64,000 nucleotides of DNA from an uncultured bacterium (GTDB lineage: Bacteria; Cyanobacteriota; Vampirovibrionia; Gastranaerophilales; Gastranaerophilaceae). The notes beneath the pieces are model-generated. The model was not told where the DNA came from and ran no database searches. It saw only the letters and a list, made by a program, of their open reading frames with translations. Below, in pieces: positions 12,304 through 34,831 of this stretch; within the stretch, counting starts at the first letter, position 1, and each line of letters begins with the position of its first letter. Made by a program: the position numbers and the translations under genes. Where the stretch lies: the NCBI GenBank assembly GCA_949286705.1, contig CASEDF010000002.1, positions 62,001-126,000 on the forward strand. The letters run 5' to 3'.

Positions 12304-12716
12304 CAATAATTTGTGAAAAATTCACTGTGCACACTAAAGGTAATACTGATATCATTGATGTTACCAATGATGTAAAAAACCTTGTCTACAGGCATTCTTT
12401 ACAAAATGCAGTTGTCTATGTTTATGTTGCAGGCAGCACGGTTTCGATTACAAATATTGAATTTGAACCGGGGTTGCTTGTGGATCTGCCCGAAGCGCTG
12501 GATAAAATTGCGCCTGTTGATAAAGCTTATCATCACGATGAAATGTGGCATGACGGTAACGGATATTCTCATATAAGAGCGTCTATCGTCGGAAATTCAA
12601 CGATGGTTCCATTGCTGGAAGGCGCTTTGCAGTTAGGGCAGTGGCAGCAGATTGTGCTGGTGGATTTTGATAATAAGGCGAGGACAAGGACGGTTCATGT
12701 TCAAATTCTATACTAA
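12300..12716 (+). CDS. YjbQ/UPF0047 family protein
   Basis: 138 aa, full length for the YjbQ family (TIGR00149), small trimeric proteins reported to have weak thiamine-phosphate-synthase-like activity; the true role is unknown. Seen: SITNIEFEPGL, YHHDEMWHDGNGYSHIRA with the conserved His cluster, and LQLGQWQQIVLVDFD. It overlaps the pseudo-amidohydrolase by 4 bp and the pilin-like gene by 20 bp, so the three are probably cotranscribed. Confidence 0.88.
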   Translation: MTIICEKFTVHTKGNTDIIDVTNDVKNLVYRHSLQNAVVYVYVAGSTVSITNIEFEPGLLVDLPEALDKIAPVDKAYHHDEMWHDGNGYSHIRASIVGNSTMVPLLEGALQLGQWQQIVLVDFDNKARTRTVHVQILY

Positions 12717-13413
12717 AAAAGCTTTTACTCTTGCAGAGGTTTTGATTACTCTCGGGATTATCGGTGTTGTCGCGGCAATGACCATACCTACTGTTGTAAA
12801 AAATTACAGGCGTGCCGTTTCAATCGCAAAATTGAAAAAAACATATTCAACTCTCCAGCAGGCAATTCAAAGGACTATGGCAGATAATCTGGGCTATTCT
12901 TATGTTAATTTCTCAGACGGCAGCAATGACAGTATGAATGAGTGGTATAATTATTACCTTAAGCCTAATTTGCGTATACAAAAGGATTGTCTGAATGATA
13001 CTGCAGGATGCTGGCATTCAGAAGCACCTACAAAACTTTTGAACGGTGCAAATCACCCGTGGGATTCCGGTACTGTCGGAATTGGCGGGAATATAATTGT
13101 TTTCAGAACATTTGATAATGTATACGTAAATATGGATGGAGCTGAGCCGTCTGATGTTTGGGATATGTACGGAGTTAATGTGGATAAAGCAGCTCTTGTC
13201 ATGCATGTTGACGTGAATGGCGATCAGGAACCTAATGTTGTGGGGCGTGATATTTTTATTTTTGTGTTTAATAACAAAGTTTTAATTCCGGCAGGTAATG
13301 ACAAAACAAATGAGGAAGTCGATGCTGATTGTTCCGAAGGTGGCAGCGGCTATTTCTGCTTTTCTTACATTCTCAGACACGACTGGAAAATTAAAGACGA
13401 TATGATTTTGTGA
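12697..13413 (+). CDS. Type IV pilin-like protein (prepilin N-terminus)
   Basis: 238 aa exported pilin-like protein. The N-terminus KKAFTLAEVLITLGIIGVV is a class III/prepilin-peptidase signal followed by the hydrophobic helix; the residue before Phe is Ala rather than Gly. The remaining globular part has a Cys pair (DCLNDTAGCW) and a late DCSEGGSGYFC. I start at 12697, inside the end of yjbQ, because this puts four to eight basic residues before the cleavage site and an AAGGACGG site upstream. Families like this are abundant as minor pilins or pseudopilins in Gastranaerophilales; the cargo is unknown. Confidence 0.85.
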   Translation: MFKFYTKKAFTLAEVLITLGIIGVVAAMTIPTVVKNYRRAVSIAKLKKTYSTLQQAIQRTMADNLGYSYVNFSDGSNDSMNEWYNYYLKPNLRIQKDCLNDTAGCWHSEAPTKLLNGANHPWDSGTVGIGGNIIVFRTFDNVYVNMDGAEPSDVWDMYGVNVDKAALVMHVDVNGDQEPNVVGRDIFIFVFNNKVLIPAGNDKTNEEVDADCSEGGSGYFCFSYILRHDWKIKDDMIL

Positions 13414-15816: not shown

Positions 15817-15860
15817 TTGCATGATTAAAGCTTGTATTATATAATACAAAAAAAGGAGAG
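15817..15860 (+). promoter_or_regulatory. Promoter and palindromic operator of the pilin-like G-tract locus
   Basis: TTGCAT (15817-15822), 17-bp spacer, TATAAT (15840-15845), then AAAGGAG before the ATG at 15866. The -10 is embedded in a perfect 14-bp palindrome, GTATTATATAATAC (15834-15847), which would suit a dimeric repressor. Confidence 0.65.
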
Positions 15861-15865
15861 TTAAT

Positions 15866-15913
15866 ATGGAAGATATGACTAGTTTAAATCACGGGGGGGG
15901 GCGACTCCTCTAA
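15866..15913 (+). CDS. 15-codon ORF with strong RBS, truncated by a G9 tract
   Basis: ATG with a near-ideal AAAGGAG site opens a peptide that begins MEDMTSLNHGGG and ends after the G run at 15911-15913. The frame immediately after the run (from 15901) is open for nearly 400 codons and runs into the prepilin gene. One extra G (or two fewer) would join the two. I read this as the out-of-frame start of the pilin-like gene, not as an independent leader peptide, though attenuation or assembly error are alternatives. Confidence 0.55.
   Translation: MEDMTSLNHGGGRLL
15893..15901 (+). repeat. Poly-G tract (9 G)
   Basis: Nine consecutive G in an AT-rich genome, ten codons into a well-signalled ORF. 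Long G runs are classic slipped-strand contingency tracts. The only other G9 in the window is at 32824-32832, inside a glycan-modification gene. Confidence 0.9.
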
Positions 15914-15971
15914 GTACTCAGGACAAGAGTTTTGACGGTACTGTTTGGAAGAAGTTACTAAGATACTATGA

Positions 15972-16267
15972 TACTAAGGCAGTAAGAAGAAACATTCGTA
16001 ATAGTAATGTGGCCCAACATAGTTATGTTCGGAGGGAGTCTGTCATCCTGAAGTGCCTGAGGCACGACAATATACTTGGTTTTGGTCAAGCTATAAACGT
16101 CATTCCGCACTGCCTGAGGCAGGACAACATACCGGGCATTGGCGGGACTTACCGTGTCATCCTGAACTTGATTCAGGATCTCAAGAACAATGTGAAGCAT
16201 TATAGTTCGGAAAACAGAAGCGTGAGCGAAGCTCACTGTAAACCCTTAGTGCCATACTGCCTTAGTA
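15972..16267. repeat. Segment bounded by 13-bp inverted repeats inside the pilin leader
   Basis: TACTAAGGCAGTA (15972-15984) is the exact inverse of TACTGCCTTAGTA (16255-16267). Flanking bases extend the match imperfectly (GATACTAAG versus CTTAGTATC). The bounded 296 bp contains the three 57-bp palindromic units and stays open in the pilin frame. It looks like a small non-autonomous insertion. Confidence 0.5.
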
Positions 16268-17082
16268 ACTTAGTATCTTCCAAAAAAATCGCCTTCACTC
16301 TTGCGGAAGTCTTGATAACCCTTGGTATCATAGGTATTGTGGCAGCCTTGACAATTCCGACGCTTGCAGGTGTTTACAAAAAGAAGATGCTTGAAACCAA
16401 ATTACGAAAGACCATCGCTGTTCTAACGGAGGTCGTCAGACGTATTGAAGCAGATGAGGGCAGTTTTATTTTTTTGAATAATGCATCGGACCTTAATGAT
16501 CGGTATGTTTCTCAAAGAGAATTTGCAGAAACATATATTATGAAGTATTTGAATAATGCAAGACTTTGCGGAGCTACCAAGATGGAAAAAGGCAGAGATT
16601 GTGCGTCTCAAGCAGTTGTGAACGGTGCAGAAAAAGAAGTATTTATGAAAAATATCGGTAGCAGCAAATATACAAATAAAATAGTTTTACCTGACGGAAC
16701 AGGTTTTTGGATTCAGTATCCTGTGTTAAGCGGACATCCGACGATGTACGGTTATACAGTAGATATTGATTTGAATATTTCAAAAGACAAGATGTATAAC
16801 GGCATAGATTATTTTCGATTCAGGCTGCTTAAGAATGAATCGAAAAATACATATTACATTTCATCCGTTAACAGCTCGTCAAACGTAAATGATTTTGTGC
16901 CGTATTTACCGCACTGTAACTTGGATTCCCTAAACTACCCCGACGGGAATACGCTTGAGTATGCACAGCTTTGTGAAAATAACTCGCTGGATAATCATTA
17001 CGGTTATGACGTTACATTTTGTTCCGTTATGATTGAGTGTAATAACTGGAAAATACCGGAAAATTATCCGCTAAGATTCTAG
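16009..17082 (+). CDS. Type IV pilin-like protein with long repeat-derived N-terminal leader
   Basis: The frame is open from 15883 to 17082. The recognisable protein begins at SSKKIAFTLAEVLITLG (about 16276), a prepilin-type signal and helix, followed by a globular domain of about 250 aa with several Cys (LCGATK, RDCASQ, HCNLD, LCENN, CSVMIECNN). No ATG lies in frame upstream; the coordinate given uses a weak GTG. About 90 residues encoded by the tandem repeat precede the prepilin signal, which would be abnormally long. The only good start is the ATG at 15866, one base out of frame because of the G9 tract. Either phase-OFF, a pseudogene, or a sequence error. Confidence 0.6.
   Translation: MAQHSYVRRESVILKCLRHDNILGFGQAINVIPHCLRQDNIPGIGGTYRVILNLIQDLKNNVKHYSSENRSVSEAHCKPLVPYCLSNLVSSKKIAFTLAEVLITLGIIGIVAALTIPTLAGVYKKKMLETKLRKTIAVLTEVVRRIEADEGSFIFLNNASDLNDRYVSQREFAETYIMKYLNNARLCGATKMEKGRDCASQAVVNGAEKEVFMKNIGSSKYTNKIVLPDGTGFWIQYPVLSGHPTMYGYTVDIDLNISKDKMYNGIDYFRFRLLKNESKNTYYISSVNSSSNVNDFVPYLPHCNLDSLNYPDGNTLEYAQLCENNSLDNHYGYDVTFCSVMIECNNWKIPENYPLRF
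16042..16212 (+). repeat. Three tandem 57-bp units with REP-like palindromic heads
   Basis: Units start at 16042, 16099 and 16156, an exact 57-bp (19-codon) period. Each begins GTCAT(C/T)C and holds a palindrome: GTGCCTGAGGCAC, CTGCCTGAGGCAG and CCTGAACTTGATTCAGG. Units 1 and 2 also match in their second halves (GACAAtATAC versus GACAAcATAC). In the pilin frame they read as VILKCLRHDN, VIPHCLRQDN and VILNLIQDLK. Similar GTCATCCTGAAC-type palindromes are dispersed repeats in many bacterial genomes. Confidence 0.7.
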
Positions 17083-32653: not shown

Positions 32654-34831
32654 ATGTCTAGTGCCAAAATTTTATTTAATATAGATTGTCTAACCGATAA
32701 AATACAGGATAATTTACTTGAATTTTTGCAGACTCAAAATGTGCCTTTTGTTATTCAATTTGAAGGCAGAAATATTTTTCAAAACAGTAAACTGGCGGTA
32801 ATTTGCGAAAAGGTTGTGAAACAGGGGGGGGGTAACCATCTTTTTGCCTTTTCGTTTGATCTGAATAATATTACAGGGCTTGATAAAATTTTTGAACAAT
32901 TTAACAGTTCAATAGCTTACTATGAGATTAATATTGAGCTGCCGGTGCATAAAAGTTTTTATAAAAATCTCGAAATCTGCCGTAAAAAATTCGGATTTAG
33001 CTGCCGTAACACGCAGTTCTACTGTACTTTATCAGAAAAAAATTATCATGCGGTTAAAAAATTGTATAAATATCTGGAAAATTCAGGCTTTAACTTGAAT
33101 ATAGAAAGAAAAATGACCTCTGAAGGCTGGGTTGAATATCCTCCCAAAATAGAACGATGGCTCAAATCCGGACACTGGCTGCAGGCAGAACAAAAAATTG
33201 ACATACCTTTAAATATGGTGAAAAACGGTCAGTTTAAGCAGTTGGATACGGTATGCTCATGCGGTAATAAATTTTTCAGAGTTATGTCTGATGGCACGGT
33301 AAAAAGATGTTTTACAAAGCAAATAAGCGGTTGGGAAGATCTTGGTGATTTCTCCAAAACTTCTGACGTCAGATTACTAAAAGAAAATTCTCCTTGTTTT
33401 TCTGTTTGTGCTCAGTGTAAACATTATGCAAAACTGAAAGTTCAGAACTTTATTTTTGATAAGGCGGATGTTCTTGTTGACGACAGAAATAAAAAATATG
33501 ATGTCGCGGTTGTAGGTTTTGGCTGGGCTGCAAATTATGGCGCAATATTAACAAATTACGGCTTCATAAGCTTTTTGAAAAAAATGGGATTAAAACCGTT
33601 AATGGTTGAAAAACCTCGTGATTTCGTCAACAATTGCTATCCTGATGAGGTTTATTCTCAGACTTTTTCCCGTAAGTTTAATGAAAAATATTTCAAAGGT
33701 AATTTGAGCCGTATATACAATGACAAAAACGATATGAAAGCATTAAACAGTATTTGCGATACATTTATACTCGGCTCGGATCAGTGTCTGCGGTACGATT
33801 TGCAACAGCCTGCTCAATATTATGCGGGGATGGATTTTTTAAATGCTGATAAAAAGAAAATAGCTTTTTCATCAGGACTCGGTCATTTTGAATATTTGGG
33901 TGATGATTGGTACAAAATGAATATGCATTATTATCTTGCTCAATTTGATCATGTTGCGGTCAGAGAACCATCTACAAAATTTGTTGTAAAAGAGCAGTTT
34001 AATACGGATGCAGTCAATGTTGTAGACCCGATGTATTTGATTGATAAAGAAGAATATGAATATCTCGCATCTCAGTCGGATGAACCCTTGGAAAAGGATT
34101 GTATAGTTGCATTTATTCTTGCACCTGACAAAAAATATAAAGAACAGCTTGATCTTTTGAGTAAAAAATTATCCGGTAAAGTCATAGTCTTAGCTGAATG
34201 CTGGAATGTTGACATATTAAAAAGCTACGGTTTTGAAAATGTTATTGCCCCGAGTGTTGAAAGCTGGATAAACCACCTTTTGCATGCAAAATATGTTGTT
34301 ACTGATTCTTTCCATGCGGTGTATACCTTGATTACACTGCGAAAACAATTCACTCTTGTCGTGAATAAAAATATTGCATTTAAGCGAGGTATGGCAAGGT
34401 TCCCTATGTTTTCCAGCGTGCCGGAACTCGCTGAAAGAATTGTCTACAGTATTGACGATATAGGGCAGAATGATAAAATTGAGGATGAAATTGATTTCAA
34501 ACCGATTGTCGAACACTTTGACAATATAAAAGAATTTTCTGTAAAATGGCTTAAAGAGGCGCTTGCGGCACCTAAGACAAAACCTGCCATTACAGACAGT
34601 GAAAGTTTATCAATATTGCATGACAAACTTAATTATCTGAAAGATTATATGGATGATATAAATAAAGCAATTCGTGCCAATAATACCTGTGGTTCAGCTA
34701 ATTCGGCGAAATCATGCGGTTTGAAAAAACTGCTTAGAAAAATATTTTCTGTAGAAAAGATTTTTCATTCAGGTAAAAAATATAAAGTTATAACAGTTCT
34801 AGGGATAAAGTTAAAGCTGCGACGTCATTAA
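32654..34831 (+). CDS. Fusion: radical-SAM/SPASM-like half lacking the Fe-S triad + polysaccharide pyruvyl transferase
   Basis: 725 aa. Residues 1-275 look like a radical-SAM barrel plus SPASM-like tail: strands such as YYEINIELPVHKSFYKNLEI, then Cys-rich CSCGNKFFRVMSDGTVKRCF and CFSVCAQCKHY. The CxxxCxxC cluster motif expected near the start (KILFNIDCLTDK) is missing. Residues about 280-620 are a pyruvyl-transferase domain: VAVVGFGWAANYGAILTNYG, TFILGSDQCLRYD, AVREPS, SFHAVYTLITL. The tail ends KVITVLGIKLKLRR, a motif shared by glycan proteins. GGAGG site. Codons 57-60 contain a G9 tract, in frame here. It follows two glycosyltransferases, so a glycan-decorating role is likely. Confidence 0.75.
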   Translation: MSSAKILFNIDCLTDKIQDNLLEFLQTQNVPFVIQFEGRNIFQNSKLAVICEKVVKQGGGNHLFAFSFDLNNITGLDKIFEQFNSSIAYYEINIELPVHKSFYKNLEICRKKFGFSCRNTQFYCTLSEKNYHAVKKLYKYLENSGFNLNIERKMTSEGWVEYPPKIERWLKSGHWLQAEQKIDIPLNMVKNGQFKQLDTVCSCGNKFFRVMSDGTVKRCFTKQISGWEDLGDFSKTSDVRLLKENSPCFSVCAQCKHYAKLKVQNFIFDKADVLVDDRNKKYDVAVVGFGWAANYGAILTNYGFISFLKKMGLKPLMVEKPRDFVNNCYPDEVYSQTFSRKFNEKYFKGNLSRIYNDKNDMKALNSICDTFILGSDQCLRYDLQQPAQYYAGMDFLNADKKKIAFSSGLGHFEYLGDDWYKMNMHYYLAQFDHVAVREPSTKFVVKEQFNTDAVNVVDPMYLIDKEEYEYLASQSDEPLEKDCIVAFILAPDKKYKEQLDLLSKKLSGKVIVLAECWNVDILKSYGFENVIAPSVESWINHLLHAKYVVTDSFHAVYTLITLRKQFTLVVNKNIAFKRGMARFPMFSSVPELAERIVYSIDDIGQNDKIEDEIDFKPIVEHFDNIKEFSVKWLKEALAAPKTKPAITDSESLSILHDKLNYLKDYMDDINKAIRANNTCGSANSAKSCGLKKLLRKIFSVEKIFHSGKKYKVITVLGIKLKLRRH
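32824..32832 (+). repeat. Poly-G tract (9 G) in coding sequence
   Basis: CA followed by nine G then TAACC; encodes Q-G-G-G-N early in the first domain. A one-base slip would truncate the protein soon after residue 60. Confidence 0.9.

Follow-up and report, generated by a model that had tools for sequence, protein, structure and literature searches.

A G9 tract near the start of a pilin-like gene in an uncultured member of the Gastranaerophilales: probable slipped-strand phase variation of a large, dispersed gene family

A pilin-like gene in the 64 000 nt of DNA analysed here (the window) carries nine consecutive G residues shortly after its ATG, and at that length the ATG and the pilin sequence are out of register by one base. 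It is apparent from comparison with paralogues and orthologues that the gene is not alone. The probable explanation is that a large set of pilins, encoded at dispersed loci, undergoes slipped-strand phase variation, and the window gene would be one member of that phase-variable, prepilin-like family. The original prediction, of a slipped-strand contingency locus, is partly supported. It holds in outline, since ON and OFF paralogues, lengths from G7 to G12, differences in tract between orthologues and purifying selection on OFF genes all back what appears to be a contingency system; the locus is, however, not a lone one, as there are about 60 such genes.

Layout of the window gene

The features of the gene are listed in Table 1. 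The predicted arrangement of a ribosome-binding site (RBS) and an ATG leading into G9 at codon 10 was confirmed, as was the OFF state, the ATG frame stopping soon after the tract. Likewise, the adjacent frame is open for almost 400 codons (392) and carries the expected prepilin signal, AFTLAEVLITLGIIG, at 16291. From the tract to that motif, the pilin frame contains no ATG and only five GTG or TTG codons, none with a Shine–Dalgarno sequence, and an alternative start was ruled out on this basis. The same frame is closed at 15880, between the ATG and the tract, and thus has no start 5′ of the tract. It follows that the sole RBS-bearing ATG is one base out of frame, in agreement with the earlier statement that no other ATG serves the pilin frame. 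In paralogues, G10 or G7 puts the ATG in frame with the pilin.

A consensus promoter had also been proposed. The TATAAT −10 box is present (15840–15845, within TATTATATAATA), but the term 'consensus' does not apply, as the −35-like TTGCAT at 15817, separated from it by a 17-nt spacer, matches at only three of six positions. A consensus promoter scan did not pick the promoter of the window gene because of this weak −35.

Table 1. Features of the window gene (positions in the window; all on the + strand)
Feature	Position	Strand	Remarks
Putative promoter	15817–15845	+	TTGCAT (weak −35, 3/6), 17-nt spacer, TATAAT (−10); read from sequence
Segment missing as a unit in congener G015 (L344)	15828–17082	+	G015 alignment runs from 15827 straight to 17083
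Shine–Dalgarno AAGGAG	15853–15858	+	7 nt 5′ of ATG 15866; conserved in paralogues
Short zero-frame ORF MEDMTSLNHGGGRLL	15866–15913	+	Begins at the sole ATG with an RBS; stop codon 15911–15913
G9 tract	15893–15901	+	27 nt past the A of the ATG; codons 10–12
F1 leader core CGACTCYYCYARGTA..	15902–15932	+	3′ of the tract; in about 40 paralogues, limited to the window's genus
Pilin reading frame	15904–17082	+	392 codons, tract to TAG stop (17080–17082); one base off the ATG frame
Leader insert	15952–16279	+	Between KSF/KGF position and FTLAEV; inverted-repeat bounds 15952–15984 and 16244–16279; pilin frame open
Prepilin N-terminal motif AFTLAEVLITLGIIGIVAALTIP and 263-residue pilin-like body	16291–17079	+	Profile matches, predicted helix

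Tract-bearing genes in the genome and its relatives

The genome containing the window (1.85 Mb, 41 contigs) is that of an uncultured gut bacterium of the Gastranaerophilales, a non-photosynthetic relative of the cyanobacteria. When the window leader was used as a DNA query against this genome, dozens of related places were found. All runs of at least seven G in the genome were listed and then fetched with their flanks. Most share an RBS, a start codon that precedes the tract by 27 nt, the G9 itself, CGACTCYYCYARGTA and a frame open as far as a prepilin motif. A G or C tract of seven or more precedes 59 of the 73 pilin-like genes (tract within 800 nt, by coordinates); the remaining 14 include the neighbour at 12652–13413 of the window, which has a normal short leader. 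Runs of at least nine G number 63 in the genome, compared with roughly one expected (an estimate from p(G) of about 0.19, both strands), and the excess inside the window alone is modest.

The leader type of the window gene is designated F1. The same leader motif was found in other Candidatus Gastranaerophilales MAGs; within the family, it occurs in no genus but that of the window (6 of 191 genomes, 1 of 41 genera). A TATAAT-like box and an AAGGAG stand at the corresponding place in most F1 paralogues, each with its own. The distances from start to tract in F1 are 27, 24, 21 and 18 nt, all multiples of three, and the frame is therefore preserved while the sequence varies.

F1 is one of three leader designs in the genus, the others being F2 (poly-G, as in F1) and F3 (poly-C), and in all of them the tract is situated just past a good RBS and start. 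In F3, an ATG lies 37–40 nt before C9 and the pilin frame is one base short; copies with C7 and C10 are in frame. The F2 ATG is mostly at −37, and the commonest total length, 11, is one base too many (+1); G10 is in frame, G8, G11 and G12 also occur, and −1 copies are found too. Another genus of the family has unrelated leaders with the same placement of the tract after an RBS and start. For genus g23 (G037, G072) the commonest tract, 10, falls one base short, the in-frame length being 11, and G and C runs are alike in this respect.

Other homopolymers were observed as well. A C8–C10 tract follows AAAGTATGGTA in a fourth group, F4 (L041, L042, L252, L290, L324, L328), and is conserved in four species; no pilin frame was matched to F4 (C10 after AAAGTATGGTA; L041, L042 and orthologues). 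The number of long G runs varies widely among the genomes of the Gastranaerophilaceae, some having none and others more than 100: G024, G055, G058, G018 and G037, from other genera, have about 90–130 runs of at least nine G each, and further genera have none. In the window itself, an ordinary long ORF reads in frame through a G9 at 32824–32832, with 56 codons ahead of the tract and 669 after it; a change in tract length would truncate the protein, and the tract may represent a second kind of switch. At 1088–1126 of L101, runs of G13 and C12 stand opposite one another in an almost perfect palindrome, which may be an error of assembly or a strong hairpin.

Reading frame, selection and tract length

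To the F1 copies of the window's genome were added regions from three congeners, giving four species in all. Of the 123 F1 copies whose pilin frame was open, 110 were OFF and 13 were ON (G10 or G7). The pure-G copies comprised 105 with G9, 11 with G10, 2 with G7 and 1 with G8, and every G9 copy with an open frame was one base short. A copy with a substituted tract (G8A) keeps the −1 offset, and in the sole F1 copy whose tract is interrupted (G6AGG) the leader is frameshifted. Between the tract and FTLAEV, a span of 9 to 195 codons, the pilin frame contained no stops, compared with 0.088 and 0.103 stops per codon for the remaining two frames (n=123). Openness was the criterion by which these 123 copies were chosen; yet 119 of the 126 copies with enough sequence and the motif are open. 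The pilin frame lacks an ATG in 43 of the 110 OFF copies, and lacks any ATG, GTG or TTG in 19; an alternative start in that frame was rejected.

Values of dN/dS for pairs of G9–G9 orthologues were mostly 0.13–0.28 (pooled, 0.28), with 0.5 in two distant pairs. The OFF pilin proteins are under purifying selection, and their products must therefore be made at least sometimes.

Tract length differed in 26 of 84 reciprocal-best orthologous pairs, and shuffling within genomes gave 24.1±3.5; orthology therefore gives no information on tract length. Where the flanks were at least 90 % identical, tract length differed in 8 of 19 pairs, and L077 (G9) and L331 (G10) differ with flanks that are about 98 % identical. 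At the same locus, in orthologous pairs, tract length changes faster than the flanking DNA. An in-frame G10 at a given locus was mostly seen in one species only (e.g. L092, L063, L050, L060), as would be expected if length change is fast relative to divergence. Two outcomes named in the original prediction as counting against it, a uniform G9 and an ATG close to the prepilin signal, were not what was found: the tracts of homologues span G7 to G12, the window gene has no such ATG, and some relatives lack the whole gene at this site. On these comparisons, the F1 genes are in working order and have tracts that change rapidly; most of them are OFF, a single slip away from ON.

The predicted product, the leader insert and the site beside recR

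The window protein has an FTLAE sequence followed by a hydrophobic helix, and the residue before the F is Ala. Its PF07963 score, 19.8 bits, is below the cut-off of 21.2. Fifty homologues align on an invariant FTLAE core, and their profile matches PDB pilins at 1e–6 over the N-terminus only. The structure predicted for the window protein (pLDDT 77.5) has an N-terminal helix of 53 residues (4–56) followed by strands; a fold search with this model returned nothing significant, the top PDB match being the pilin FimA (E value 0.24). The product is accordingly termed pilin-like, which is as far as the evidence reaches. With regard to the earlier claim of a surface pilin, the putative pilin character has only the N-terminal motif and the predicted long helix behind it; exposure at the surface would be a further step.

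The residues before TLAE are KGF, RGF or NGF in 35 of the 123 F1 copies, with Ala before the F in the remainder. In short F1 copies the leader ends KGF-TLAEV, as in a normal prepilin. In most F1 copies, that of the window included, an insert splits the KGF point from FTLAEV. The insert of the window gene contains dispersed palindromic repeats, and the same modules recur in many paralogues. Inverted repeats (LLRYYDTKAV ... YCLSNLVSS) flank the inserts, which contain dispersed palindromic repeats of the VILNLIQDL and CLRHDN type and are always open in the pilin frame. They bring to mind the in-frame palindromic elements of Rickettsia.

The site beside recR lacks the pilin gene in most congeners, including G011 and G012, and in G010 it holds a different tract-bearing pilin. 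Among congeners, the window gene and its −10 box are present or absent there as a unit; it seems that the dispersed pilin genes come and go as cassettes. A mobile-element or phage origin was considered and rejected, the leader motif and the pilin having no relatives in viral contigs.

Mechanism and alternatives

A G or C tract of 9–11 bases lies within the first 9–13 codons, inside what would be a cytoplasmic prepilin leader that is later removed; because that leader would be cleaved off, changes in length should cost the mature protein nothing. Particular lengths alone (in F1, G10 or G7) bring the ATG and the pilin sequence into one frame. Under slipped-strand phase variation, mispairing during replication would add or remove single bases, turning each gene ON or OFF independently. 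With about 85–90 % of members OFF in the sampled genomes and a changing minority ON, cells of one population would differ in the few pilins that they make, and slips of a single base probably give each cell a small set of its own. Slippage explains why the tract sits in a leader that can be dispensed with, why ON and OFF copies exist side by side, why the tract changes fast and why OFF genes are under selection. We infer that replication slippage is the cause, that switching is reversible within a population, that the products are exposed at the surface and that host or phage exerts selection on them.

Published slippage rates for Campylobacter jejuni (PMC8224891) give a stationary mode of 9, as in F1, and modal tract lengths in Neisseria are 9 or 10 (PMC5953494). 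All congeners have MutS, for which reason slippage may be slow; its presence also rules out loss of mismatch repair as the source of the abundant tracts. Other results stand against slippage as well: the F1 length distribution is narrower than the C. jejuni rates predict, G8 is scarcer than G10 (1 vs 11, P about 0.006), and F1, F3 and the other genus are all commonest at one base short of ON, though ON is 10 or 11. This one-short rule is not required by slippage alone. The ON share, 10–18 %, was also below the third or so expected of frame-switching genes without selection on state.

These results have a bearing on the main alternative, which we judge unlikely, namely that the tract is a programmed recoding site at which slippage occurs, either of RNA polymerase, with a G or C added, or of the ribosome, by −1, the one-short length being the working state with a set low level of pilin and the in-frame copies being constitutive variants. 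The constant −1 offset of open-frame G9 copies in F1 would fit such a site, as would the −1 offset of the commonest states in F3 (C9) and g23 (G10 and C10, with ON at 11), the depletion of the third frame (one G8, against 11 G10 and 2 G7) and the purifying selection between OFF–OFF orthologues. Programmed frameshifting would, however, show a fixed offset in a single direction and a conserved slip site with a stimulatory element. The offset is mostly +1 in F2, where −1 copies and in-frame copies are found besides, so that no single direction is kept, and the same rule applies to G and C runs with unrelated flanks and no shared stimulator; the opposite offset of F2 and the use of both bases speak against one recoding mechanism. 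Moreover, close relatives differ in tract length without compensation, and transcriptional slippage is reported to affect G/C runs less readily than runs of A/T (PMC5084427). An RNA element at the window gene was rejected, as an Rfam search of that region gave no match. Since the scarcity of G8 and the one-short rule, which holds even where ON is 11, are both unexplained by slippage, programmed slippage retains a small share of probability. Its broadest form is also doubtful: selection would hold the tract, G or C, exactly one short of the in-frame length in several leader families and two genera, and the homopolymer would be a general recoding device by which polymerase or ribosome slippage sets a low expression of dozens of pilins, with DNA switching on top.

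It is very improbable that most copies are permanently off, as a silent archive or as decaying genes, serving at most as recombination donors. About 90 % of copies are indeed out of frame, the leaders are full of inserted repeats and some copies are broken (L061, L064, L068, L077 and L104), but the 119 of 126 open copies, a dN/dS of about 0.2, the retention of promoter, RBS and start in nearly every copy and start–tract distances that change only by multiples of three all argue otherwise. An assembly or sequencing artefact, in which the true tracts are one base longer and all of the genes intact, is scarcely credible: homopolymers are error-prone and all of the sequences are draft assemblies, apparently metagenome-derived, but ordinary genes carry G9 (window 32824) and G10 (L076) in frame, which rules out a systematic miscall, lengths of G7, G8, G10, G11 and G12 are all called, the substituted G8A copy is still −1, and the modal length varies by genus and, within one genome, by leader family.

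Significance and comparison with known systems

If slipped-strand phase variation of these genes is correct, gene callers would miss or truncate most of these pilins, single genomes would understate surface diversity, and pilin selection driven by host, diet or phage could be readable from mixtures of tract lengths in existing metagenomes. Phase variation by simple repeats is known mainly in pathogens (Neisseria, Campylobacter and Helicobacter). Searches of an open literature library gave no paper in which phase variation is linked to the Gastranaerophilales, or in which phase-variable pilins with homopolymers are linked to cyanobacteria.

The opa genes of Neisseria, about 11 in number and dispersed, with CTTCT repeats in the leader, resemble the present genes in being dispersed paralogues; they switch independently, as is proposed here. 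The opa repeat, like the tracts here, is near the start, in the signal-peptide region. The opa system differs in its pentanucleotide repeats, its outer-membrane products and its far smaller number of genes. Closer in the type of repeat are Neisseria pilC, pglA and lgtA, in which a G or C homopolymer in the coding sequence gives frame-dependent ON/OFF switching by slipped strands; pilC, moreover, affects type IV pili, and the modal G tract in Neisseria is about 9 (PMC5953494). Unlike pilC, which is represented by one or two genes whose product is not a pilin, about 60 pilin-like genes here bear the tract themselves, and pathogenic Neisseria average 15–18 poly-G tracts per genome, compared with the 63 runs of G9 or longer in 1.85 Mb. 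C. jejuni has 12–29 poly-G/C contingency genes per strain, with homopolymeric tracts of G7–G13, as here; its tracts are insertion-biased at G8–G9 and deletion-biased at G10–G11 (PMC8224891), and it is without mismatch repair (PMC4235727). Its contingency genes serve mainly capsule and lipooligosaccharide biosynthesis (PMC4235727), whereas those described here are pilins, in one paralogous family with one leader design, in a genome with MutS. This would, then, be a switch of a familiar kind, applied to an exceptionally large number of pilin-like genes; it appears here in an uncultured gut lineage of non-photosynthetic cyanobacteria and on a larger scale, with about 60 pilin genes of one protein class in 1.85 Mb.
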